The notes beneath the pieces were generated by a model. That model was given only the letters and a program-made list of their open reading frames with translations. It was not told the origin of the DNA and ran no database searches. The position numbers and the translations under genes were made by a program. A stretch of 64,000 bases of DNA from the NCBI GenBank assembly GCA_947561395.2, contig OX387194.1, positions 11,890,048 through 11,954,047 of the forward strand. The letters are read 5' to 3'. This DNA comes from Buxus sempervirens. Taxonomy: Eukaryota > Streptophyta > Magnoliopsida > Buxales > Buxaceae. Shown piece after piece: positions 7,601 through 43,130 of this stretch. The first letter of the stretch is position 1. Each line of letters starts with the position of its first letter.

Positions 7601-10600
7601 AGGCCCAAGAACAAGTTAGGCTTATCACACGATCAACACAATCCCATCTAAATAAGACATGGGTTGTGTTTGGTTTGAATGGATTAATGGGTTTTAACAA
7701 CAAAAACCCATCTATCCAACCCCACTAATTTATTACTGTTGTTGCTGTCTAAACCCCATGACAAGTAACCAAAGTAGCAACAATTTTAGGCCTAAAGACA
7801 GTGGAAAATAGTACAATTATCAGAGAAGAAAAATGTAATTGAGATGTGTTGAGTTTGGCACAAAGGAGGCTTCCCTCCCTTATCAGAAGGTAAGAAGAAA
7901 CCTGTTATTGCCCTCAAGTAATGTGGAACAATGCCCTATTCACAAATAAAAACTACATGGAGTGACCAAAAAATCTCAGTACAAGGAGCTTGGTAGGGTT
8001 GAAACTTTGGATGGGATGACTCAAGGCCCAATCGATCGGGAGGCTCCTTTTTATTGATTAGGTTTGAGTTGTCATGAATCTGAAATAAAAAAAGATTCAA
8101 ACCCTTATCCAATAAGCAACAAACTCAGTAGAAATCAAATAGACTGTGACAATCAAATGCAGTTGGGGTTGGCTAATAACATACCCTCTTGGATTTGACT
8201 AGAGTTCCAAATGTTTCTTCAACTTGAAAACCACGGAATGCCCTGTTTATTTTGGTTTCCTTCAACAATTTTCTCATTGGATGTATAAGACTGAATCCTA
8301 CTTTTCTATCTCTTGATGAATAATGGATTAAGGAATGCAGGCTCTGGCATGCATTTATCAGCAGGCAATTAGCAGTGTTTGTTTAAAAATGAATAAACAA
8401 ACAAGAAGTAACCAATCACATCTGTCAAGATCAACCAGATTTCCTCATCCCCTTCTTGTTCACACTAACTCTGCTCATATCTATTTCTTCTACATCCCTT
8501 ATGTATCCTTAAGCTTGCTTGGAGACTCTACAGACCTGCAATTCCTCTCTTTACCACATCCAAAAAGGCCTCCAAATAGACCAAATTGCCTCCTTATACT
8601 CTGTCAACAAATCCCAGATCAAACCCATTTCTCATAATGCTAAAGATTTGCTTGTATCAGTCCCTTCTGCTTGCAAAGCACCCTGATTTCTTCTACAGAT
8701 TCACAACCAGAATATGGATAAGCATAATAATCATCTGAGACTCCTATAAAAACGTAAAGATCTCCACCGCAATCCCAATAAATCAATCAGAAAAAAATAA
8801 CTTAACGTCGTACAAAGATATAAGGAACCCTAAAGAAACCCTAATATCTTAATAAAGTAAAACAGATGATCTAAAACAAAACTTCACATAAACAAGAACG
8901 GAAAAGTAGAAGAAATAACATCAAGAGAGAATCGAACAAGAGCAAGATCCCTCACCTTGATAGGAGGAGAAATGAAAAAACGAGGCTTCGAACGATCAGA
9001 AGAAAACAGAACAATGAAGAGGCGATTGCCCTCGAACCTCTATTTATAGATGCTATCGCCGAATGCCGGCTCTCTACGAAACTTAATATCGCTGAATCCC
9101 AGATCAAACCCACGGCCTCTCTTCAGTTGTCCGATTTCTTCACCACCGCAGGAAAAGCTATAAGGAGGGAGGAATGCAAGGCTCTGATTTGGTCATGCCC
9201 CAGGAGAAGGAAGAAAAAAAGAGGCTCTCGAGCTACCTTCGTCATGCCTAGGAAGCTCCCGAGCTATCTTCGTCGAAGTCGTTCGTCATGCCAGGAGAAC
9301 GAAGAAGGGAGTCGAAGTCGTGGAGAAAAAAATTTTGAAACACGAGCACAAGGCAAGAGCTCCGTTCGTAATGCCCTGGCGGAAGATAACTTCCGCTGAA
9401 TTTTAGCAGAAGTTATTTTCCGCCAATTTTACTCCAAATTGGAAAATATTTTCCTTCAGTTTCCGTTTTCCCCCTAAAACAAACATCCAGAAAACTTCAA
9501 AATTCCGGAAAATATTTTCTTTTCCCTATTTTCCGGTGAAACAAACAGAGCCTTAACCAAACAGAAAAAGAACACAAAAAAATTTCAACTTCAGAATCAT
9601 GCCGGTAGAGTTTTGGACATACCTAGCACAAACCCAAATCCCAAGTAAGGTGCATCAACAAAGGAAATAAATAAGCATAGAATATAAGCTCAGGAGTCAA
9701 TTCATTTAACTAATAAGAAAATCTGAAGCATACATGAAATTCAGATTTCAGACAAAAAATCAACATTCCTACAAAGTATATACATGAAGCAGCTAGTCTA
9801 GAAAGATCATAATTATAATTCCATCAATCAGACTTCCCACCACCTCTTACTGAAACTTGCTCGCTATTTTTCAACTAGAACTATTCATGATTCTTCATTG
9901 ATATCATCTGACAAATATAAGGAGAGGCTTAGATTCTTGTGGTCAAAGCATTTTGTCCCAGGATATCAACAAGCCAATAACTATGTCATAAACTTCTTTC
10001 AAATAAAGGAAATATATAAAAAGAATCCATAAACCAATTAGAAAGGAAGCATGGACTGGTTGCCCAAGTACTTACAATCTCTGTATCGTCTAGGATCACA
10101 ACAGCACTCTCTTGCCCTAGCACCACATCAAGGCCTTTTTGATGCCTCTGGGTGCAATCAGCTTGTGAAATTACTCTAGAGCTGAAGTAAATTCTTCCAG
10201 GGTCAAGTAGCTTCGCTATTTCCATTGCATAGGAACGTTCTGCCATTGTGTATATACACATTTCAAACATGCCACTTGCTTCCTTCAGAAAGGTATGAAC
10301 AAAGGGCCTCAACTTTGTCAACATGTGCATAGAATCCAATCTGAAAATGCTGCCGCTCGAAACATCTACCATTTCAAGAATTTTAATCCCATCAACAGAG
10401 TACGCAAGTAGGAAAATGAAAGTTGTGCAGATCAGAATATGCAAATAATAACAGCAGATAAAAATCATGAACCAGAATGAAGGATGAAAACTTTATCAAT
10501 ATAAAGCGAAGATCTTATTATTTTGCACGGTTCATTAAGACAATCCAAAGAGACTCTCCTGAAACATATATATAGAGAAAACAAAAGGAAAATCTTATGG

Positions 10601-13600: not shown

Positions 13601-16600
13601 TGAGGCCTATGGGCATGGGCGTTTGTTTGCCCTCCCCAATGATTATGTGAGAACTTTTTAGCTTTATTTTTTCAGGGAATCTCTTCGCTGCATTGTACAG
13701 TTCTAATCCAATACATTATACACATATATAGTTATGTTTTCTAGCTTAGAAAAGAAAAGGAAAAGACCGCAGAATATGGTTAGACCACGACATAGGCCAC
13801 ATTGATTTTTAATTTTGGATATTCACAATCCATTCCAACCAAGCTTCCCCTGAAAGATTTGCTTAAGTGGCAGTTGTCATAAGCTTACTACCTCATTAAA
13901 AATGTTCACCCATAATTAGGAACATCTCTATTGTGTTTCTCATTTTAAGTGGTTTTCCTGATTTGATACTTTAATAGCAATTTAAAGTAGAAACCAAACC
14001 AAATGTCTGTATTCCTGAGAATCATTTAATTAATTAGAAATTACTATAAATGTTTACTTGTTCAAAGCCAAACACAACCAATTAGTAGAACAGCCTGCCC
14101 TATCAATCTGTGAGCTTGATATGCAAAAGGACAAAAGTTGAAGAAAACCACAAGTCCCAAATCTCTCTCAACGTATCCTAATGATCCTTTGTTCCCAAAT
14201 CATACCATTCCTGAAGTCACCCTCAACTATTATGATCTTACTGTTCAGAGCTTTCAACATATCCCAAATACTATAAAGTGCTCTGAGGCTTTGGATTTGT
14301 TAAATTTGATCCCTAAACACAAATTAAAAATAAGAAAATGCAAAATATTTTCTCATATATCACTACAAAATCATGAAGGACCTGTATTATGGAGTAAACA
14401 CTCATTGAGTTTGATCTCATTCACTTTGGAATACCCCAGGTTGAATGGATGGTTTGAGATTAAGAACAACCTTTTAAACACATTCTATATTTAGAATTGA
14501 GACATCATTACTTATTCATTTCCTTTGTAACTAATGGAGCACCATGACATCATCTATACCTAATATAAAAGAAACAGTGTCCTGCTTTTCTACCATCGTG
14601 CTTCACCTGCTTCAACAGCGTCTTCGCTACCAAGGTGTCGGCCTCCCACCGTGCTTCTGCCTACCTTCTACCGATTCCCTACCCTATCTTCTAGCGACAC
14701 ATCTTTCTGAGATACCATCACCTGTGTCTTCTAATGCTATGTGCGGATCACCTTATTCACCCCTCTTGTCTGTGCTACCGGCATGAGTGCCCTATCTTCT
14801 ACTGCTGTATCAAAAAATTTTACAGATGAAAAGAAGAGCAATTCAAAACGCAAGTAATTTCTCAATAGAGTTGTTTGCAACTGCACCAGCTGCGTTGTGA
14901 AGGACTTGTGCAACTTATCAAGTCAGACATTTCTCTCTCTCCCTTCGTGCTTTGAGTTAATACTGTCTCTTTCAGTTCATGGAAGCCAGTGCTTCAGTTT
15001 GCTGCCTTTCGCACTTTAAACAGGGTTGGGATTTTGTTGTTGAGATGGAATCATGCTATTCTTTTATGAATTGATGTTTCCTGCCTACATATGGTGCTTT
15101 GTCAATCTGAATTTCAGTTATTGAACTAAATTTTACATGTTTTGTAATATTTATTGCCCTTTCATTTCGTCAATTGATTCTATAATACAGGGGCATGGAT
15201 CTTTTCCTTTCTGAAGCTTCTATAGTTAGATTTGGTTTGTTTTTTGGTTAGTTTTTTCAGTGAATTTCTTTGGTTGGTTTAGTTGTGATTGTTTAGGTTT
15301 CTGCAAATGGAAAGTTATGACAAACGAAAACGGGGTGCTAGAATTAGGAGATATGGAAGCAATGGTAAAGATAGAAGAGCAAGAAGTTACATGGAAATAG
15401 TCGAAGCTTACAAGGATAGTCGAAGCTTACAAGGATAGAACAATACAAAGGGAAATATAACCCTAATACAATGGAAATACCCGAAATACCCTCTTGCGAA
15501 TTTTCGCCTCGAGGGCTCCGCCCCCGAACCCCTACCTTACGAGCAAGGGGTGCTGCCCCCCTGCGACCCCCGTGAGCTCACAACAAAGCTCAACCCGCCA
15601 ACTGTGGCTGGGTGTCCAGTATGATCAGGCTCCACACAACTCAACAAATAATAGTGATGAGCCAAGTCTTGGGGGTGTCCTTTGAAGGATTTGATAAGGT
15701 TGCAATGGCATTATTCACAGCACGAGAAAGAGAAGGAAGCTAACAAGAAGGTGGCAAGAGAGCTTAAGAAGTTGACATGGTCAGTAAACGATACACCGAA
15801 ATCGGCGGGAGGAAAAAATAGAAACTGAAATGGTGTAAGGAGGGGTTCAGAGTTGTCTTATGAAGGTTAATGTAATAAGTTGGAATACTATAGGGTTGAA
15901 TGCAAGGGAAACGAGGGATTCAGTTAAGTCACTGTTAAGAGCTTGGAAACCAGATATTCTGATTATTTAGGAATTGAAATTGGAAGTGGTAAATAGCAGG
16001 ATTATTGGGGAAATATGGGACAGCAACAGGGTGCAATGGATATACTTGCCATCAAAAGGGAGTGCAGGTGGAATTATTCTGGCCGGGAAAAGCTCATCTT
16101 TTCAGTTGCAACAAACTTGGATCAAAGAATTTTCTGTATCTGCCCAGTTGCATGACATCAAATCTTCTAAGTCTTTCCTAGTGAGTGGAGTTTATGGTCC
16201 AAATGCTGAATCCTTGTAGTGTAGGATGTGGGAAGATTTGGAGGAGGTGAGGAAAAATGTTCAATTCCTGTGGTGTTTGGGGGGAGAATTTAATGTCATC
16301 AGATTTCCTTCGAAGAGGAAAGGGTGTAAGCATTTGTCAAGAGCAATGCAGAAATTTCAGAATTTATTCATAGACTTGCACGATATTCCAATAAGAGGAT
16401 CAAGATATACCTGGTCTAATAAATACTCTTCTTCAAAGCTTGACAAATTTCTAGTTTCATTAGATTGGGAATCAAAGTTTCCAAAACTAGTAATTGAAGC
16501 TATGCCAAGAGTAGCCTCTGATCATAACCCGCTGATGTTGAGGGGCGAGAATCTCATAAAAAAAGCCTCTCCCTTTCGCTTTGAAAACATGTGGCTGGAA

Positions 16601-19600
16601 ACTCTGGATTTTGTTACGAAAGTGGAGAAGTGGTGGGGGGAGCTGAAGGTAGAAGGGACTCCAAGCTACATTCTAATTAAAAAGATGAAGATGTTGAAAT
16701 TAATCCTAAAGAATTGGAACTCTGAGGAATTTGGAATGGTGGACCAACACTTGTCAAAAACATTGGCCCAAATAAAAGAGATTGATATAAATCAGATAAG
16801 GAACAGTTAAGTACCACGGAATGGATGTTCAAGGAGAGATTGAAATTGGAATTTAGAAGATGGGCCTACTTGGAGGAAGTTGGTTGGCGACAAAAAGCAA
16901 GGGCACTTTGGCTAAAAGCAGTGATATGAACACGAAATTTTTCCACAAACTAGCAAGTGAGAGATGGCGGACTAATCATCTTAATAAAGTAGAGATAGAT
17001 GGGATAATTTATGAAGATGAGGAGGTCATAAAGAAGAAGATTTCAGATTCCTACTTTAAGCATTTCAAGGAAGAAAACTAGTTCAGACCCAAGGTGGATG
17101 GATTAGATTTTGGGATGTTATCCCTTGAAGATAGTGATAGTATGGAAAGGCCTTTTTTTGGAGGAAGAGGTAAAGGGAGTCATCGATCACCTTAATGGTG
17201 ACAAAGCACCAGGCCCAGATGGATTCACTCTAGCATTCTTTAAAGCTTGTTGACAAATAGTTAAAGAGGATTTGATGGCTACAATAAAGAAGTTCCATAA
17301 AACAAGGAGCTTTAAGAGAAGCATGAATGCAAATTTTGTGGTGCTGATTCCTAAGAAAGAAGGAGCATTTAAGTTGAAGCAGCTAAGACCTATAAGTCTT
17401 ATCAGAAGTGTGTACAATATTATAGCAAAGTTGCGTGCTAATAGATTGAGGATGGTGTTGAATCCTTGATTTCACAAACCCAAGGAGCATTTGTAGGAAG
17501 TCGGCAGTTGCAAGATGGGATTCTTATAGCTAGTGAATGCATTCATTCATGCCTTAAGGAGAAAAAACGGAAGATGTTGTGCAAATTAGACCTCCAAAAG
17601 GCATACAATAGTGTGAATTGGGATTTTTTATTGTATATCATGAGGAGAATGGAGTTTGGAGAAAGGTGGAGGATGATGGATGCGATTCTGCATATCATCA
17701 GCTCGTATCTCTTTGTTGATTAATGGCTCATCAGCTGGTTTCTTTGGTACACAAAAAGGCCTTAGACAAGAGGATCCTCTCTCGCCACTCTTGTTCACAT
17801 TAGTAATGGAAGCATTCAGCAAAATGATGGTTCGAGCTTCAGATTTTGGAACAATGGAAGGAGTCAATTTTGGAGGAGTTTCCATAAATCACTTACTTTT
17901 TGCGGACGACATCCTCACATTTTGTGATCCAACTCAACAGTCCATCACATGGCTGAAAGGAGTTCTCCTATGCTTCCAAGCTTGTTCGGGTTTGAAAGTG
18001 AACTTAACCAAGAGTGACATGTATGGAATTGGTGAAGTGGAAAACTTAGAAGACCTAAGCCTAATCCTCGGTTGCAAGGTGAACAAACAGCCAACGACTT
18101 ATCTAGGGATCCCTCTAGGAGCAAGGTTCAAGAACACTTAAGTTTGGAGCCCGCTAGTTGAAAGAATGGAAAAAAGATCAGCATCCTGGAAGAGTTGCAT
18201 TCTATCAAAAGGGGGTAAGTTTACATTGGTGTTAAGCGTGTTGGCAAGCCTACCTACTTTCTATATGACGATTCTTAAAATTCCCATGTCTATTGCTATG
18301 AAACTGGAGCAAATCCAAAGGAAAATCCTGTGGGAGGGTCTTAGGGGGTGGGGGGTGGGGGGTAGATAAGTTTCACTTAGTAAGCTGGAAATCAATGTGT
18401 CAATTGGAGGAAGGAGGGCTTGGGTTGAGACCTCTAAGGCCTCGTTTGGCTTTCATTTTAGGAATGAGTTCCAAGGCTTGGAACTCATTCCAAGCCTTGG
18501 AATGAATTCTGATACCAAAATGAGTGTTTGGTAATGCATGCAAGAACTCATTCTATAAGAATGAAATGAGAAAACCCTTGATTTTCATAAATGACTTCAA
18601 CCCCGTTTTTGGATTTGAGAATGGGTTCTGATTTTTATGCGGTGGCAAACTTGTAATTATTGTTAACTTTAAGCAATGGCATAAATTGTAAATATGCCAA
18701 TTGAGCCTTCTCTCCTTCTTCAATAAAAGACTTTCTAATCGTCAATAAAACAACTCCTCTTCTTCTTCGTTGCTGCTCTGGTTATTTAAGGGGAAAATGA
18801 GGGTTTCTACCATTTCGAAATGGGGAGAACAACTGTGACCCATTGGATATTTCCGAAACCAAAGAGAGAAGGAACGCAGACGAGAACTCACGGCAAAAAC
18901 CATGGATTCGACTGCTCGAAGAAGCGGCGGAGGCCTTCTCAAAGGGTTTTACAAGGTCTTCATGCGCCGTAACTCCGTTTATGTCACTTTTATAGTCCTC
19001 AGCGCTTTCGCCGGAGAGCGGGTAGGGTTTCTTTTTGATCTGTTTCTCCATATTTCTGATTCTCAGACTAAAAATTTCCGTTCTTATATCGTGATTGCCG
19101 TGACACTCCTTGAATAGCTTGTGATTCTATTTAATGCAATCTCGAACTAGAGTCTCCAAACCATTTGGTTGTAACTGAATTTGGGACTTCGAAAGTCGGT
19201 GGGAAAAACGCTTGTTCTGTTCTATGTTAGAAATATCGGTGATCAGTTTCTGGAATCAATGTTACATCTATACTAATCAGCGCTTTGATGGGTTTGATTC
19301 CTGGGTTAATTTGAGGCGGTATGAATATATTGAATGATCATATCTTTGATTTCTATAATTTTATTTTTATTTTTTTCATTTTTGAGTCTTGCCTCTTCTT
19401 TCTAGATCAAGGAAGCTTTTCATGTTTCTAATTAACGAAGGTGTGATCTCTTGGCTGCAGGCAGTGGACTATGGAGTTCACAAGCTCTGGGAGTATAACA
19501 ATGTTGGGGTAATATTTCTAGCACTGCCTTATTTACGCACATTGAACTTTATTATTTTATGTTAAATATGGAGTATAACGATGTTGGGGTAATAATTATA

Positions 19601-22600
19601 GCACTGTCTTATTTACGCACATTGAACTTTATTATATTATGTTAAATATTGCAACATGCTTTTTAGTAGCGTCGTTTTCATGTAAACGTTAGACCTCTGT
19701 TCCTACTATTGTTTTTGGTGATTTTAATGCTATGCTCACTAGTGCAAAGAAGCGGGGTGGAGCTCCTTTGAATCAATCTCAAAGTGAAGCTTTTCTGCAG
19801 TTCATTCAGAATTGTAATTTGTGTGAATTACCCCTAAAGGGTTCTCAATTCACTTGGACTAATGGGCAATTTGGATTCCGGCGCATCTCAGAGAAGTTAG
19901 ATAGGGGGTTTGCAACTACTTTTTATGATTTGTTTCCTAACCCAATTATCTATTCGCAGGCCATCATAGCCTTAGACCATTGTACCATGTATATTGATCT
20001 GCTGCACAAGAACAGGGGAAAGTGCCGCCCATTCAAATTTGAAGCATTTTGGCTTGAGGAGGAATCTTACCATGAAGTTCTGGAGAACGTGTGGAATCAG
20101 TGTAATTCATCCCTGTCAGTACCAAGAAGACTCCAACGCCTGGCTTTTGAATTGAAGAAATGGAACAACAATGTGGTAGGAAATATCCATGGAAAACTCA
20201 ATCAAATAAAGGATCAATTGCAGTCTGTTCAACATTCTATGGCTCAATCAGGGAATCATCTATTATCCTACAAGGAAAAGGATTTGCAGAAAGAGTATGC
20301 AAGATTATTAACACAACAGGAGGTGTTTTGGTACCAGAAATCAAGGGTAAAATGGCTGTTGCTCTTGGATTTCGGCATGTTATACTGGAGGGCGATTCCT
20401 TAATTATGATCCAACTTCTGCAAAAACGGAGTCAAGGTCTGGTGCGAGATGAGGATATTCCATGGAGGGTTTTACCGGTTCTTTCAGAAATTTTTGGGTT
20501 GTGGGAAAGGTTTGATTGCATTGAACTTCGACACACGTATAGGGAAGGCAATATGGCTGCTGATCTATTAGCTAATTTCAGTATAGACTTCTTCTCATGT
20601 GTTTGGACTAAAAAGTCCCCAGGGTTCTTATGTAGACTTTTGTTTGATGAGGCTAGAAACATTGTGTATTATCGTCCTGTTCACTAAATAAATAAAATTC
20701 ATGTTTCACTACCAAAAAAAAATGTAGTCTTACATGAGTACCTAAGAGACACATGAACTATGCAGCTCTCGGTAGTTGATTTTCCCCTCATTGATGATGA
20801 ACCAAATCCAGATGGAGTAATACAAGAACAAGGAATAAGGAGGATGGATGCATTTAGACAATCAATTGCTGAAGCTCTATCGCATGCTTGCAATAGTGAA
20901 TGCCCTTGAGAGTATTATTTGTATTAATGTAATGAACTTTGCTATAAATTATGGATGTGATAGGACTTTGTGACTTTACTGATAGTTGCTATCATTATGT
21001 GTTTTAAATTAATAGACATAATCAGCAAACCCATCCTTTATTTTGTTTTTGTTTTTCATTTCTTAGGTGTTTCAAGTTTCATCTTTCAAAGATCAACCAA
21101 TTTCTTATAATTATTCATGGAAAAAGAAAAAAAAAGGGAAAAACAAATTTCATGGAACTCATTTTATTACTTGTTAACCAAACAATTTTCTAGGTGAAAA
21201 TTCATTCTGCTACGTGCTAACCAAACACAATTAGAAATAATTCAAAATTGATTCGCAAAATGAGTTTTAAGAACTCATTATCGGAATGAGTTCCTAATCC
21301 AGAATGAAAGCCAAACGAGGCCTAAATGTCTTTAACAAAGCTTTGTTCCAAAAGTGGATTTGGAGGTATGGCAATGAGATTGACAGCCTAAGGAAAAGGT
21401 CATACATCAAAAATATGGTTCATCGTTTGGTAGTTGGTTTCCTTGTCAATCAAAAGCCTCATTCAGGGTGAGTTTAGGGAAACCAATTGTAAAGCTAGTA
21501 GCCTCTGTAGAGAATGACTGCAGATTTATAGTGGGCAATGGAACTAAGGTCAGATTTTGGGTGGATAATTGGTGTGGCAATGGGCCTTTGAAAGACAAAT
21601 ACAATGACCTATATATCATATGCAGTGACAAAGAAGCTTCAGTGTGCAAATACATGGAGATTACTACAGCTGGAAGGTTGTGGAATATCACGTTTAGAAG
21701 AGATTTGCAAGATTGGGAGGTGGGATTGTTTGAGGAGCTGCTGCAGGAGGTCTATAGTATTCAGCTGGATCAGGTGGAGGATGACTGACGTTGGACAAGA
21801 GGAAAATCAGGCTTATTCTCAGTAAAGAAGGCTTTTGCATGCTTGAACTCTACGGGATTGAAGATCCAGGAACATAAGCTGATATGGGCAAAACATATAC
21901 CAAGTAAGGTAGCTTTCTTTACATGGGCAGCAAGGCTGGATAAGATCCTAACTGTGAATCGCCTAAAGAATCGAGGATGGCAGATGCCCAATAGATGTAT
22001 AATGTGTAAAGAGAGTGAAAAATCAGTAGAGCACTTACTAGTCCACTGCAAGGAAGCCAACAACCTATGGAACAGAATTATTGGAAGGTTTGGAATATTG
22101 GGGGTTCAGAAAAAGAGTTTTGATAAGGTTCTTCAGGCTTGGGGTGTGAAGAAAGGGACTTCGGAAAAACTTGTTGTGGAACATTGTTCCTGCCTCCATT
22201 ACTTGGGCAATCTGGGGAGAAAGGGACAATAGAAGTTTTAGAAGTCTAGAGTGTGATCCGCCATATCTAGAAAGAAAAGTTTTGAGGCTCATGCATAATT
22301 GGTTGTCAGCTCATGGTATGATGAATGATGTGCAGCTTCAAGACCTGATCCTTTGTCACATATTTCCAGATTAGGTGAGGAAAGTCCAGCAGCATATATG
22401 AGGATTGCTTTGTTGACATCATCAGGGGGGGGAGTCGGGAGTAGGAATTGTTAGAATACGTAAATTTGTCTCAGGATCTATATGTTTGAATCCAGTTATG
22501 TATCATAGGTACACTATTTGTGTACCTATAAATCATGCTTCAATTAATCTATATATATAATATATCTTATTTGCCGATCAAAAAAAAAGGGTTCATTGTA

Positions 22601-23763
22601 TTGAGTTTTATGACATGGCCAACCAAAGTAGTGAATTTTTTCTGTATGTGATCTCATGGATGAAACACATATACTCATGGATGTCTGTTCCATACATTTA
22701 GCGTTTATATTTCCTTAGAATGATTTGCATCCAAATGCTTCCTCAAGTGCCACAATGTATTCCTATTTGTTGTGGGACCCAGTATTTTCAAATTACAGGA
22801 AAGTTGAAACACATAAAAGTCAAGAATGAAAAAACCTAAATAAAGGAACAGAACGAAGATAAGAAGGTTGGTGCAGTTGATCAAATCAAGAAGAGATATA
22901 GACTCCCATCATTCAGTGTGAGCATAAAACTACCAACCTAGGGTATTGGTATTTTGTGCAAAATAGTTTGGGCTTTTCGGGCTAATCCCGAGCCCAACCT
23001 GAACTCAATTCCAAGCCAGAAATTGAGCCCGGACCAAACCCAAACCCAAACCTAAACCTTAAATAGGGCTGTTAATTGGCTTGGGTCAGGCAGGCTGGGC
23101 AAAACTTACAGCTCTAGTTACAACATGGATAAAATTTCTATACACAAACAATGAGTGCACATCACAAGATCCATAAATTAAAAAACTAGAAAAAAAAAAT
23201 TCAAAGCAACCATCCATGCAAAGGCCATAAAAACTAACTGGGCCAATTAGCCTTCATATGATTTTAAAAGGCAAAAGATACAAAGTTAGAAAGTGCACCG
23301 CCAATAATAAATGATAATTGAGCATTTATTTCTTTTTTTAATAAATGAATAACAGGAAAAATCATTTGTTGACAATGAAGAGAATTTACCAATGAAGAAA
23401 TAATATATCTGAATGTTACGCACATCACTATAGTTGTTAAGGTGCTCGCTTGGGCCCCTACGGCGAGTAGGCAGCTTTCAAAAGGGTAGTGAGACAATAG
23501 CCCAAGCAGATCACACTTGGACTAGTGCCTCGGTTCCTCCTAGGTCTACGCCTAGGTAATAAGTCAACAACCTTATAGCCTACTTGGGTGAAGCAACCAC
23601 CTAAAGCCTATTCATATGTATTATTTTTTAATATATATATAATCATGCAAGGCCTTACACAAGTTTCTGTCCATAAGCCTTACACAGGTTTCAATTCATT
23701 GATGAAGGACCTAGGAAAGGACCCTGTAATCATGCAAGGCCTCCCTCCCTCCCTCCCTCTCTC

Positions 23764-23794
<31 letters not shown>

Positions 23795-26700
23795 TGGCTC
23801 ATTGGAACCATGACCCTTACAGGTAGTAAACTCAGAGGGTATGAAGTGATTTGGTTCAAACTCCTACCAAGCAAGGTGGCTTTTTTCATTTGGGTGGCAG
23901 CTCTTGACAAGATATTAACGGTGAACCATCTTAAGAGTAGAGGTTGGCATCTACCAAATAGGTGCATTATGTGTAAGAGGGATGAAGAAAATGTCGACCA
24001 CCTTCTTGTCCATTGCAAAGAGGTATGGAAGCTATGGGATGTGATTATAGCAAAGTTTGGGATCCCTTGGGTGCAACCAAGGAGCTTTGGATCAGTTTTG
24101 GAGGCATGGGGACTGATGAAAGGGAAATCAATTAGGATCATGGCTTGGAATGTTACGCCAGCAGCTATAGCGTGGGTGATTTGGGAAGAAAGAAATAGAA
24201 GAATTTTCAGAAATATAGAGACAAAGGTTGAATTTTTGGGGAAGAGGGTCTTGAGCCTTATCCAATGTTGGTTGGCAGATTATATTTCAATGGACATCAT
24301 CAACCATGAAGAATTTTCGGGCAAATTGTCCTTCCAAGAATAGAAAGGGAAGGTTTCCTAGAGTGTTTGACTATGGTTGGGCTTGATATCTAGGTTGTAG
24401 CTGTTTGGTACACTAGCTTGTGTACCATAACTTTGTTCTCTTTTTCTCCATTATTAATATATTTCTATTACTGATCAAAAAAAAATTTTCAATAAATTAT
24501 CAGAAACAATGAAGGTCAATAAGAGATCTTTCAAAAAAGCCAAAGATCACTAAAAATAGAAACACAAGCATAAAGATATAAATACTAGCAGACATATCCT
24601 TTTTTTTCTCCCATTTTTCTTTCTTTTACCCTCTTTTAATTAGACATAAGAAATATTTTCAACTCATGCCAATAAATTTGGGATATTTTAAATCCCTCCC
24701 TCCTCCCCCACCCCCCAACCCCCACAAAAAGAACCCAAAAAAGAAAACCAAAAAACCCAGTGGTGGCAAAAATTTTCTGGCACAACATTCCTATCTATCA
24801 CGCAATCATCCCAGCTGTCTTGTAACTCCCCATTCTTACGAATATAACAAAATTTATTAACCATGAGAAGGATTTAGGACAGAAAAAACGACAAATGGAA
24901 GAAATAGGAAAATTGAGATCAATTATTTTCTGAGGAATATATCATCCCAATTAAAGAAAATGATGCCTTATCTTACTGGGTGAATAACTTTCAATACTTC
25001 ACAAAATAAAGAAAAATGTGATCAAAATGCATGGTTGAAACTTGATTTAGAGAAGGAATACCTGATGTATATATCCAAATGCTACCCCTGATCCATCCTC
25101 CATCATTTGCCCACATCGAATGCACAATCCTCCGAAAACACCAGGATGTTGACAAGCTTCCTTATTAATGAATGATACTACACATAATATACCAGTTAGA
25201 ACAAAGAGACTCTGACCATTTTAAAACACTCCTAGAAGAAATGAAACCAAGTGAAGATAAGTTTGTAGTTTCCTGATTCTTAGGACCATTTGGATAGTAA
25301 TTCAAGCCCTTTTAATTGCTCAGATGGCATACTGTATTTATAATTATTATAATTACAGATGCTATAAAAAACTTTAAAAAATAAATAGACAGAATAGGTG
25401 CCTGAGATAGATTGGAATTTGGTAAATCACTCCCTTTCTACATATCATAAACTCGGTAATTTGTTTACAATAAATAAGCTGATTAGATCTGAGTTACAAA
25501 ACTTAACCACAATGGTGACCGGTCCTCGTTTTCTCTTTTCTATCTTCCCCTTTCCTCATTAAATCTTATGTATAAACATTCCAGAGGTGTTTCTTTTGTA
25601 TAGTTAACTGAAGATTATCTTAAAAGATAGTAGGATGTACATAGTACCCATAAGAGATGGCTAAAGAGCAAAGACCAGAACCCACACCAGCTGTACAGAA
25701 AACAATTATCAGGTCTAATGTCAGCAAAGTGGAATAAAACACAGTCCTAAAACCCGCATTATGCTGCACATTTACTGCTACATATTAAATCCTAAGAGCA
25801 AAGATGGACCAATCATAGAGCACCTCCTAGGGCAGCACAAATTTTTTTTTGAGAAAGATAACAGAGGTATATATTAAATCAAGAGAGAGGGAATACAAAA
25901 AAACATGGTGGCACTTTCTCAATACATAGGGGTGTGCCCAAAAGATTATACAACAGAAGCTGACTCCCTATTCTGCCCAAGTAAAGAAGCTACATCATTC
26001 CCCTCCATAAATCCATTAATGAATTATTTATTTGAAGTAATGCCAAGTAGTAAATTGCATTTCATCAATAGGACTATAATTATTTAAAATTAAATATAAT
26101 TTAATAACTTGTAACCTAAAATCAAATTTGCAGTAATTGCATGAAACATTCAGTATATGTCATCTTTTTAAACTTTTTTATCCTATTTTAACAAACAAAA
26201 AAAGATAAGGCCAAAATATAGAGAAAAGGATTAAAAACTAGATAACTTAGGTAATGAAAGAGATTCCTAAACAACCCAAATGGAAGCAATCACTCTAACC
26301 AAAAACAAGATTGGAGTTATAAATATAATTTGAAGAATCACACAATCATGTGTTCATTAAAGGAGTGTAACTCAAGTAATAGGAAATAAAATTCAAGATT
26401 TAAATTTCAAACACTTTTTAAACCATCTTGTACTTCACTAAAGAAATACTAACTGCATTGGTAAAAGCATCTAGCACCTTGTTCCTGAGCTCCATCAGAT
26501 GTCAACCCTTGAGGATCCTCTCCATCCTCTGATTCATCCAATTTCCGCCTTTTAATCCTGGAATTTCAATCATACTCCAAAGTTTAAGAAACTCAAACAA
26601 TATTTCAGAAAAATAAAGTTTTCTTTAATTGTTAATAACTTTTTAACTTGAAATCCCTTGCAGTACAATGTTTTATGATAGTAAAAGACCAAAAAGGAGT

Positions 26701-28289: not shown

Positions 28290-30744
28290 TGACTCGTTTG
28301 GCGTTCATTCCAGATTCATAATTCATTCCGAGAACGAGTTCCTAAAACTCATTTTGCGAATCAATTTTTGTAGCTTTCTAATTCCGTTTGGTTAACACAT
28401 AGCAAAATGAATTTTTACCCAGAAAATTGTTTGGTTAACAAGTAATGAAATAAGTTATATTTTTCCCTTATTTTTTTTCCATGAATAATTATAATAAAAT
28501 TGGTAGATCCTTGAAAGATAAAACTTAAAACACCTAAGAAATGACAAAAACTTCAAACCGTCTTATAAATATTTTTGGATACAAATAATTCAAATATATA
28601 ACACCTAAAAACAATGTTTTCAATTGCAATATGACCTTTATACGAGTTTAATACACCTAAAAAATGAATTCCAAAAACTGAATAATTCTTGAAATAAACA
28701 TATAATAGGCACATCCATCCTCCTCGTTCTTTGTTCTTGCACTACTCATCTAGATCTGGTTCATCATCAATGTTCTCATCTTCAATGATTAAATCTTCTT
28801 CTTCATATTGATTAAATAACTCATCTCTCAATGTTTCTTGTCTAAGGAAGTTATGCACTGCACACGCAGCAACAAAAATATTTATTTGTGTTGGTAATGA
28901 GTATGGAGGTATTCTCTTAAGAATAGGAAAGTGTGTCTTCAACACACCAAAGCATCACTCAATTACATTCCTCAATGAAGAATGAACATGATTAAATAAC
29001 TCTTTCACTCCACTTGGTGAACTACCTCGTCTATAATCAGGTAGATGATAGTGTACTCCTCGATACGATGCTAGAAAACCCGACTATAATGCAAAGTTGA
29101 TAAAAATCTTTTTCAAATCATCCGACCAAAAGGCTTTATTTTTCGCCTTTGACGCTTGTTGAGTTTTCATGAATCACTGAAACATAAAAGTAATAGCAAA
29201 AGATGCTAAGTTAAAGCTATATATTACAGAAATCTCAATATTATATTGTATTGAAATCCTCAATACGTGTATATAGTTTTCACGTCAAAATATACCATTC
29301 AAGGCAAGCTAAACACTCCAAATCCATCAACAACATTCGTATTCACAATACAAACACTGAATCTCTAAGGCAAACAACATTGGTGTCACAATACAACATG
29401 GCTATTCAAGAGGATTATATGGAGATCTATTGTCTTCTAGTTTTACTGCCCAACCTAAAACATCATAGCATAGAATGTTCTGAAATTTTTTTGTGCAAAT
29501 TATTATCTGTTAGTGTCTAGCCAATGTTTACTTGACGTGGCTTGGATTCCTAAAAAGTGTGAAGGAATCCAGTTTTACCAGCCGGATTGTTGAGATCCAT
29601 TTTTTCTTTCCAGGAACAATAAATGAAGCTATTCAATAGCCTAATGCTTCAGAAGCAATACGCATCCCATCCATATGAACTCAAATTAAAAATCTTTCCC
29701 TACAAATAAACACTGTCAAACTGGATGGCACAAAGTATTCCTCTAGGCATCAATATAACAAAATTTTTCAGTGGGGCAAGGTAAAACAAAAGTGGTAAAC
29801 ATATACTTCAATTCTATTTTCATGGCTATCACACTCATCAAACAGAGATAAGAGAGTAGTTCACTATAAAAATGCTAACTTGAGCAATAAATGAAAGAGC
29901 ACACATCCTTAAGAATCAAAACCCCACAAAAGTCCTCCTACTGACTAAAAGACAAGAAGTGCTTATCATCCAAAATAGTTTTATTCTTATCTTCTTGAAC
30001 GCTTCAATAAACTAGTAGGAGGTTGATCTTTCAAAGGATAAGAAAGGAACCCTAAACTGAGCAACGAGTTCATTTTTAACAGGAATGAATATTTTAACAA
30101 GTTCCAAAATAAGGTTTCCCTGGTTAACAAAATGATATCAAATATATTTCCCCACTCTAGTAATGAATCGTTGATCACCTCCCAATGCTTTTTACAATAA
30201 CGACAGTAAGAAGCAAAACAGAGAGAGAGAGAGACAATAGTGGCAGATTTTAGCATCCAACTAATAGCAATAGCATCAACATTCCATTAATCCCTAATAG
30301 CCACACGAAAATTCAAGCAATGTACTGGAAATAAGCCCTAGAAAATGAAGTAGATGAAAGCAAAAGAAGAAAAGATTTCTCGATCACCTCTAGCCACGAT
30401 AAGAACGGTCGTCAAATCTCTTTGATTTCAGCGTGTAGCAACGGAGGCAATGGAGGCTTGCATCTGCGTTTAAACTTGAAAACGAAGGATTGAAGAGGAA
30501 GGCTTTGTTGGTTCGTTGAAGAGAAAGGCTAGATTACTTAATTTACATTTTATGCCATTGTTTGAAAGTTAACTCATTTTACAAGTTTGCCACCGCAAAA
30601 AGGCTCAAAACTCGTTCTTAAAATTTGGGAACGGGGTCAAGGCCGATTTTAGAAAAAGTTTTTCTCATTCTCGTTTTGGGAGAATGAGTTTTGGCACACA
30701 TACCAGGTTGAAATGAGTTCCCAAAATGAAAGCCAAATGAGGCC
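28290..30744 (-). mobile_element. PIF/Harbinger element (2.5 kb) with transposase remnant
   Basis: The left end TGACTCGTTTGGCGTTCATT and the reverse complement of the right end GGCCTCATTTGGCTTTCATT form imperfect inverted repeats, flanked by TAA on both sides (28287-28289 and 30745-30747). About 150 bp at each end closely resemble the ends of the element at 18438-21322, inverted. A decayed transposase lies on the minus strand near the left end. The rest (29200-30700) has no recognised gene. Confidence 0.82.
28742..29076 (-). pseudogene. PIF/Harbinger transposase (DDE_Tnp_4) C-terminal remnant
   Basis: The minus strand reads SGFLASYRGVHYHLPDYRRG, then KELFNHVHSSLRNVIE, a stop where the family has Arg, CFGVLKTHFPILKRIPPYS, AACAVHNFLR and a tail EDENIDDEPDLDE. 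These are the C-terminal motifs of PIF/Harbinger transposases (RNxIERxFGxLK, HNFxR). The in-frame TGA and loss of the upstream catalytic region mean it is inactive. It identifies the superfamily of this element and its relative at 18438-21322. Confidence 0.92.
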
Positions 30745-32482: not shown

Positions 32483-32535
32483 AGGCCTTGTTTGGAATTC
32501 ATTCTGGATTGGACGAATGAGTTCCATGAATTTGC
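32483..32535. mobile_element. Isolated end of a Harbinger element, same family
   Basis: GGCCTTGTTTGGAATTCATT followed by CTGGATTGGACGAATGAG matches the outer 45 bp of the elements at 18438 and 28290. No partner end was found downstream, so this is a truncated copy. Confidence 0.55.
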
Positions 32536-41649: not shown

Positions 41650-43130
41650 ATGGAGTCGACTTGGGTTTCGGATACTTCTCTCAGCTTTGATCTCAATTCT
41701 AACCCTCTAAGAGTTGTAGATGAAACTCTGGTAAGTAGAGTTTGATTCAGCCAGATCGACCATCCTATATGGGTTTTCTTGCATTTACAACTCTCTTTGT
41801 TTAAATTTGCTGAGTTTTGAATTCTTCTTCATTTGGTTCAGGACACAGAGATACAAAGTCCAGTTCATGACATGGGGAGGAAATTCTCAGCGCAAGATGA
41901 GGTGAGTTAATGGATACTACTCATGTAGCTTTTCTCCTTTTGATTCTCTTTTTAACTGGGGTGTTTGCATTGATCTAATGGTGTGGACTTGTTTTCATGT
42001 TCAGACCGATGTTTTAATAGCCGAATTGAATCGGATGAGTGCGGAGAACAAGAGGCTAACTGAGATGCTTACTATACTGTGTGAGAATTACAATAATCTG
42101 CAAAGCCATGTGATGGAGTTGATGAACAAGAGCACTGAAAAAGAGGTTACAGCCACAAGGAAGAGGAAGTCTGGGAGTTGTGATAACAGTAATTGCAATC
42201 AAGTTAATGGGGTTACTGAGAGCAGCTCGAGTGATGAAGATTCATGTAAGAAACCAAGGGAAGAGATCAAGACTCAGGTCTCAAAGGTCTATGTGCGCAC
42301 CGACGAATCCGACACAACCCTTGTAAGTTCAAATTCCTAAGAGTAACATTAACTATGTGAATCTAGTCCATCAAACATGGATAAGTAACACTGTGTACAT
42401 ATAAAATCTTTCATGTACAATGCACAATTTCTTGGTTTTGTGGGTTTTTGTTCTACAATCTCTATATCCTTCCTAGTACTAAACAATCCACATGTTACTT
42501 TGCTGCATATTTCAGGTAGTAAAAGATGGATATCAATGGAGGAAGTATGGCCAAAAGGTCACTAGAGACAACCCATTTCCTAGAGCTTACTTCAAGTGCT
42601 CCTTTGCCCCAGGCTGCCCAGTGAAAAAGAAGGTAAGCCTAAATCAAATTGCCTCAACTTCATCCCCTTGTTTTAATAGGTAGTAGTAGTTATGTTAGAC
42701 TTCAAATTTTTTTGAAGGAACAAAAAGGATGTTAACTTGCTTTGGGGTGATCTTATTCTCTTATCAGGTGCAAAGAAGTGTTGAAGATCGACTTGTTTTG
42801 GTAGCAACATATGAAGGAGAGCATAATCATCAAAAACCTTTGCGAGCCGAGGCAGCATTGAATTCAAGCCGTGGCGTAAACCTTACATCGGTCCCTTCTT
42901 CAGCCTCTGAAATATCTTCAGCAAATCCTGCCATTACTCTTAATCTCACCCAACCTGGATCAAATACTGATAACAAGACGCCTACCCGGAACGTTGAGTC
43001 ACCGGAATTGCAACGATTTTTGGTTGAGCAAATGGCTTCTTCCTTGACAAAAGATCCCAATTTCACAGCGGCGCTCGCAGCAGCGATTTCGGGAAGAATT
43101 GCCCATCAATGTCCAGCTGAAAAGCGATGA
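41650..43130 (+). CDS. WRKY40: Group IIa WRKY transcription factor, WRKY40/WRKY18-like (312 aa)
   Basis: Nuclear DNA-binding protein recognising W-boxes; group IIa members act in pathogen and ABA responses and pair with one another. Exons: 41650-41730, 41842-41901, 42005-42322, 42516-42632, 42768-43130; all borders are GT/AG and the frame is continuous. The protein has a leucine zipper ([20 protein letters not shown]), basic KRK, a serine/acidic stretch, then [17 protein letters not shown] and a C-X5-C...H-X-H zinc finger (YEGEHNH). The C-terminus [20 protein letters not shown] is the typical IIa tail. The intron splitting the domain after KKK is the V-type intron known from groups IIa/IIb. 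The length matches the family. W-boxes lie upstream and a second IIa gene lies 12 kb downstream in the same orientation. Confidence 0.95.

Follow-up and report, generated by a model that had tools for sequence, protein, structure and literature searches.

A PIF/Harbinger element of Buxus sempervirens with captured QCR9 exons and a LINE in the captured intron

The nested element and its cargo

We looked at a stretch of 64,000 nucleotides from Buxus sempervirens (GenBank assembly GCA_947561395.2, contig OX387194.1, forward strand positions 11,890,048 to 11,954,047), called the window below and numbered from its first letter. It holds, at 18438-21322, a transposable element of the PIF/Harbinger type that carries a piece of a QCR9 gene and a piece of a long interspersed nuclear element (LINE), and this element lies inside another LINE (Table 1). 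An initial annotation had described perfect 20-bp ends, a TAA duplication and exact nesting in the host LINE, and all three observations were confirmed. The terminal inverted repeat (TIR), GGCCTCGTTTGGCTTTCATT, was found again in inverted orientation at the other end with 20 of 20 positions identical, and TAA was present on both sides. With up to three mismatches, the motif occurred five times in the window against 0.03 expected, two of the five being the element's own ends. When the best 40 of 280 candidates were scored, 39 matches of the joined flanks to LINE paralogues ran through the point of insertion, as judged by the matched range, the remaining match being the window's own right flank. 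The frame of the host LINE is broken at other places too, besides the element insertion. Close behind it lies a further LINE 3' fragment (23579-24343; zf-RVT, 2.5e-18).

A genome-wide search with the element gave 47 matches (from the best 40 of 811 candidates), 33 of which covered the right arm alone, from about position 2352 to the end, and seven such members (L021-L027) were retrieved for comparison. The homology of the left arm stops between element positions 284 and 365 in six members, and positions 362-396 resume in L021 beyond an insertion. On the right, 20789-20909 corresponds to the final part of the transposase frame seen in other members; about the last 40 codons are left, so that the element's own transposase is incomplete. 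Fuller relatives encode a DDE domain (L022; PF13359, 1.3e-12) and, in ORF1, a Myb-like domain (L027; PF12776, 4.1e-14). Because of these predicted domains, together with the TIRs and 3-bp duplications that are mostly TAA or TTA, the window element is classed in the PIF/Harbinger superfamily, as first annotated. In viral_contigs, the TIR motif had no match, and none of 16 pattern matches to QCR9 was confirmed.

The three parts of the cargo named in that annotation, QCR9 exons with their intron, a LINE piece and a transposase tail, were all recovered. Joined, exons 1 and 2 give 56 amino acids that match PF05365 at 5.3e-17 as well as QCR9 chains, the best solved relatives being 7jrg and 8bel, which we take to be from Vigna and Arabidopsis respectively, and 8zno. 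Intron 1 (439 bp) has GT and AG ends, and exon 2 measures 48 bp. The inner LINE retains an RNase H part (PF13456, 1.6e-9), an open reading frame (ORF) on the endonuclease side that stays below Pfam cut-offs, and an A-tail; its reverse transcriptase was probably removed by an internal deletion that sits at a 10-bp overlap (20346-20355). In a LINE relative on C11, the two parts lie 2.78 kb apart, each beginning within one 1480-amino-acid open frame. Close kinship between the inner LINE and the host LINE was considered and rejected, their protein identity being 26% over 183 aligned positions on the endonuclease side.

Table 1. Positions of the element, its parts and related features in the window
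Feature	Position	Strand	Remark
Host LINE holding the nested element (approximate extent)	15860..22374	+	RVT_1 on left side, zf-RVT on right side
Left target-site duplication TAA	18435..18437	.	read from the sequence
Left TIR, 20 bp	18438..18457	+	
Left Harbinger backbone	18438..18833	+	common to family members without QCR9
22-bp stretch at left capture junction	18834..18855	+	in all five QCR9 elements
Captured QCR9 DNA, part 1	18856..19698	+	collinear with donor C1:5250269-5251222, ~95% identical
5' leader, 46 nt	18856-18901		
Exon 1	18902-19021		
Intron 1	19022-19460		
Exon 2	19461-19508		
Intron 2 start	19509-19698		
80-bp tandem duplication over exon 2/intron 2 border	19490..19649	+	donor gene has the same duplication
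Later LINE insertion (putatively L1-type)	19699..20721	+	5'-truncated, 2.78-kb internal deletion, A-tail
Captured QCR9 DNA, part 2	20722..20793	+	remainder of captured intron 2
Right Harbinger backbone, 534 nt	20789..21322	+	C-terminal end of transposase frame (stop at 20909) and subterminal repeats
Right TIR, 20 bp	21303..21322	-	
Right target-site duplication TAA	21323..21325	.	
Second, more diverged relative of the same family	28290..30744	-	TTA duplication, diverged TIRs

The donor gene, the five elements and the later LINE

The donor stretch on C1 aligns to element positions 411-1259 and 2285-2356 (a second alignment starts at 419). There, exons 1 and 2 are as in the element, and a third exon, reading KRYQDIPVLGTRQSEE and then a stop, follows about 6.4 kb downstream behind a GATGCAG acceptor. 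The C1 locus thus looks like a complete three-exon QCR9 gene, and it is still in place. The retained intron and this collinear locus bear out the capture at the DNA level that had been proposed. The 80-bp duplication is older than the capture, since the donor has it too. By protein search (14 of 14 candidates scored), exon 1 was found at C1, in five elements and at C3:49598294-49598416 (minus strand; L035/L043). At this last locus, exon 1 stands alone in the 9.9 kb examined, with start and splice donor intact. The C3 locus, which adjoins what we take by eye to be a WD-repeat gene, is probably an old partial paralogue.

At least five elements bear QCR9: the window copy and those at C12:33.47 Mb, C12:41.03 Mb, C8:23.11 Mb and C8:3.41 Mb. 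Their left and right capture junctions are identical in all five, and clean target duplications were found in four (TAA, TTA, TCA and TAA, that of the window copy being TAA). Over the QCR9 part, the window copy differs from the C12:33.47 Mb element at 13 of 838 positions, from C12:41.03 Mb at 18, from C8:23.11 Mb at 30 and from C8:3.41 Mb at 37. The donor differs from the five elements at 36 to 47 of 836 positions (38 for the window copy), and 23 aligned columns separate all five from it. Five shared columns unite the two elements that carry the LINE, two unite these with C12:41.03 Mb, and one adds C8:23.11 Mb; two others unite both C8 copies, in conflict with the column that groups C8:23.11 Mb with the other three. 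Overall, the shared changes fit the same order as the pairwise differences. In the C8:3.41 Mb element (L012), about 98 bp of the intron 2 remnant are additionally duplicated in tandem.

The LINE is present in two of the five elements, namely the window copy and that at C12:33.47 Mb, both of which are flanked by a target duplication of their own. The LINE is absent from the other three and from the donor, where intron 2 is uninterrupted. Captured QCR9 DNA amounts to 945 bp in the LINE-free C12:41.03 Mb element and to 843 plus 72 bp in the window copy, the LINE having replaced 31 bp of target that the LINE-free elements keep. A target duplication of the inner LINE was not found, the longest exact word common to its flanks being 7 bp, at chance level, because the insertion was accompanied by the 31-bp target deletion instead. 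The LINE was therefore not captured together with QCR9, since intron 2 runs through unbroken at this point in three elements and in the donor; it inserted into the intron 2 remnant after the capture. The LINE-bearing form moved again afterwards, since it occupies two sites with a separate target duplication at each.

The initial annotation had instead favoured a single capture history. Joint uptake of QCR9 and the LINE fragment could have come from a QCR9 allele in which the LINE was already present or through one repair event with several templates. Their enclosure by one TIR pair, the lack of a target duplication of the LINE's own and the compound structure common to two elements speak for this. 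Contrarily, three related elements have the same QCR9 junctions with no LINE and with the very 31 bp that it replaced, and the donor is LINE-free as well. Loss of the LINE with exact restoration of 31 bp is implausible, and a separate capture for the LINE-free elements is contradicted by the common junctions and the 23 shared differences. We therefore regard joint acquisition as scarcely credible. That annotation had also held that separately inserted pieces, each with its own target duplication, would argue against one history; the separate insertion was found for the LINE, and a deletion took the place of the duplication. The comparison with the functional gene and the search for further copies of the chimera, both suggested there, gave the C1 donor and the second LINE-bearing element with its three LINE-free relatives.

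A stepwise history and the fate of the captured exons

Altogether, these results indicate that the window element is very probably a non-autonomous, gene-capturing ("Pack") PIF/Harbinger element with a history in four steps. It has host-gene DNA inside its TIRs, a donor gene elsewhere in the genome, an incomplete transposase and a multiplied cargo, as in Pack-TYPE (Pack-PIF) elements. In the first step, a contiguous piece of about 0.95 kb of the C1 gene was copied once into a Harbinger element with an internal deletion, where it came to lie with the left subterminal region before it and the last transposase codons after it. The QCR9 element then spread, giving at least five copies, of which four each have a clean 3-bp duplication. 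Third, one lineage received the 5'-truncated, internally deleted, putatively L1-type LINE in its intron 2 remnant with the loss of 31 bp of target, and fourth, this LINE-bearing form moved again, as its presence at the window site inside an older LINE and at C12:33.47 Mb shows. The capture itself may have been a copying error during repair of an excision gap, with template switching at five shared bases, CATTG (20789-20793), within which the right capture junction lies. The transposase would have been supplied by related copies elsewhere; mobility through a cognate transposase has indirect support from the copies at several loci with their own duplications.

Several observations weigh against this history or parts of it. 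The left junction is not a simple join, since its 22-bp stretch matches neither donor nor backbone among the compared loci, where it is confined to the QCR9 elements (21 of its bases, up to four mismatches). The count of five depends on a whole-element genome search and an exon-1 protein search. The C12:41.03 Mb copy is flanked by TAA on the left and AGT on the right and so lacks a clean target duplication, and two columns conflict with the proposed order, one uniting C12:33.47 Mb with C12:41.03 Mb and the other uniting all elements except C12:33.47 Mb. Finally, the frame of exons 1 and 2 and their splice sites are intact in all five copies, as expected of a working gene.

Capture could also have come about by the joint movement of two neighbouring Harbinger copies flanking the QCR9 segment, following the Pack-TYPE model of Gisby and Catoni (2022; PMC8903248). 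The left and right arms are indeed two end pieces of one family, as that model predicts. The region around the donor, C1:5243000-5264100, has no family TIR within five mismatches and a single 33-nt match to the backbone arms (E 0.003), which we took as chance, although insertions that have since departed could be invisible there. Moreover, the right junction is made of 5 bp of shared sequence and not of a target duplication. Joint movement thus seems rather unlikely, and we keep to copying during gap repair as the way in which the first step may have occurred.

The intact exons raise the question of whether the captured QCR9 acts as a working chimeric gene, in which exons 1 and 2 would be spliced and read on into intron 2, giving a 74-amino-acid protein with a new hydrophobic tail. 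The initial annotation had considered a chimeric transcript possible because the start codon and upstream sequence were kept. The start codon is kept, and so is upstream sequence, of which the capture includes just 46 nt before the ATG, so that no QCR9 promoter is evident. In the window copy, the ATG, the frame, the GT/AG sites and the 74-amino-acid reading are open, and this reading is open in the other four elements as well; the probability that 23 random changes leave it stop-free is about 0.51. With the donor as ancestor, 17 nonsynonymous and 6 synonymous distinct exon changes were counted over the five elements, for about 128.5 nonsynonymous and 39.5 synonymous sites; the resulting ratio, near 0.87, is that expected in the absence of selection. 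Exon 2 has no change in its 48 positions in four elements and one in the fifth, and this was not taken as selection because the copies share ancestry. The window copy deviates at five residues on which three structurally solved QCR9 chains agree; three of these deviations are already in the donor (F13L, I32V, A33L) and two (E14K, G34S) arose in the elements. The codon variants of the window copy also include R18K and V31I, and the last 16 residues of QCR9 are absent from the captured reading. The element also sits in a decayed LINE. A working gene is thus highly improbable and the case for a chimeric transcript weakened; the pattern of changes suggests that the QCR9 piece most probably encodes no working protein and decays neutrally.

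Other family members and neighbouring features

In five of the seven retrieved members, both ends were present and the 3-bp duplications next to them agreed: L021 (TCA), L023 (TTA), L024 (TTA), L025 (TGA) and L027 (TTA). In L026 the two sides differ (TTA left, CTT right), and the left end of L022 was not within the retrieved stretch. The search for donors of the fillings covered L023, L025, L026 and L027. For the filling of L025 (C15:34.85 Mb), three loci matched, among them C8:45624563-45625815 at 93%, which lies upstream of a HIT-domain ORF (PF01230, 5.3e-12) that may belong to the same gene. The filling of L026 (C12:33.51 Mb) matches C11:3626882-3628390 piecewise at 90-100%, a stretch that overlaps, in antisense, the beginning of an Orn/Lys/Arg decarboxylase-like frame (PF01276, 1.1e-70). 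In L027 (C8:4.62 Mb), the match is to C8:6393027-6393647 at 97%, the end of a 550-amino-acid open frame and the sequence that follows it; this frame had no Pfam, NCBIfam or PDB match. In these three members, the donor match spans the filling and not the arms, which suggests that three of the seven likely carry pieces of host loci, besides the QCR9 group. The L023 filling has a partial match to a tandem cluster on C10 (84-91%). L021 (C12:22.57 Mb) has a left arm interrupted by some 2.9 kb of inserted sequence that begins with TG and has ACGAGG on both sides, possibly an element of the long terminal repeat type.

Five members whose middles differ (the window element, L024, L025, L026 and L027) have right arms 534-564 nt long, so that the arm starts cluster in some 30 nt near the end of the transposase coding sequence. 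The neighbour at this breakpoint is captured host DNA in the window element; the host match ends 30 nt before it in L025 and 137 nt before it in L026, and L024 and L027 have ORF1-side family sequence there, joined at different places. Because the neighbour in these last two is not host DNA, a preferred breakpoint at which the family exchanges its middle appears quite improbable to us, and the clustering could reflect either a hotspot or one inherited deletion. If the breakpoints were independent, a short stretch of the element would repeatedly halt gap repair, with host DNA among the things taken up there.

Elsewhere in the window, the second relative contains broken ORF1 and transposase remnants (PF13359 below cut-off, E 0.019), with neither QCR9 nor LINE. 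A lone TIR-like end, GGCCTTGTTTGGAATTCATT, lies at 32484-32503 (plus strand), possibly a truncated element; a search for its partner in reverse complement with up to four mismatches gave only 21303 and 30725, the ends of the window element and of the second element. A 147-bp tandem repeat array occupies 5-683 (about 4.6 copies, 82% matches). By eye, we take ORF pieces at 42699-43130 and 9986-10492 to be from a WRKY-type factor-like and a CTD-phosphatase-like gene respectively, and the window probably holds ordinary genes besides transposons. Rfam gave no match and ARAGORN no tRNA in the window.

Comparison with known systems

The donor gene and the LINE-free and LINE-bearing elements coexist in one genome, and for this reason the order of capture, amplification, LINE insertion and further movement can be read directly. 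An apparent chimera of several sources in one transposon can thus form stepwise, which calls for caution in surveys that count captured loci per element. With the other members that contain likely host DNA, the ways in which PIF elements gain their cargo could be tested.

Capture of gene fragments between TIRs is known from Pack-MULEs, which belong to the Mutator superfamily, with other TIRs and another duplication length; the window element shares the capture with them and differs in superfamily. Pack-MULEs of rice are named in the work of Gisby and Catoni (PLoS Genet 2022; PMC8903248), which deals with Pack-PIF elements of maize and rice and was the only match in our literature search on Pack-PIF/Harbinger terms. 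Like those elements, ours is a non-autonomous PIF element with captured coding DNA that has multiplied. Joint mobilisation of neighbouring elements is proposed there, whereas here the donor has no family end in 21 kb. Literature searches for QCR9 capture by a transposon gave none by title, either among the 10 titles listed of 199 or in a narrower search, whose one paper, on an alga, was unrelated by its title.

For the inner LINE, target-site deletion is a recognised outcome of non-LTR (non-long terminal repeat) insertion, according to a review (PMC2881922). As in the cases given there, target bases were lost with no duplication; beyond them, our LINE has an internal deletion of its own, and its target was a captured intron inside a DNA transposon.

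Capture of exons together with introns by PIF elements is already known, and the present element is a new, well-ordered case of it. In grapevine, Pifvine-3 elements were reported in 2008 as PIF elements with transduplicated host exons and introns (PMC2528002). They share with the window element the superfamily, mostly TAA/TTA duplications, and host exons with introns common to several copies; the grapevine elements possess ORF1 and transposase, to which a long 5' region is added. The two families are likened here by structure, and the window element differs from Pifvine-3 in having lost most of its transposase and in that its cargo was later struck by a LINE.

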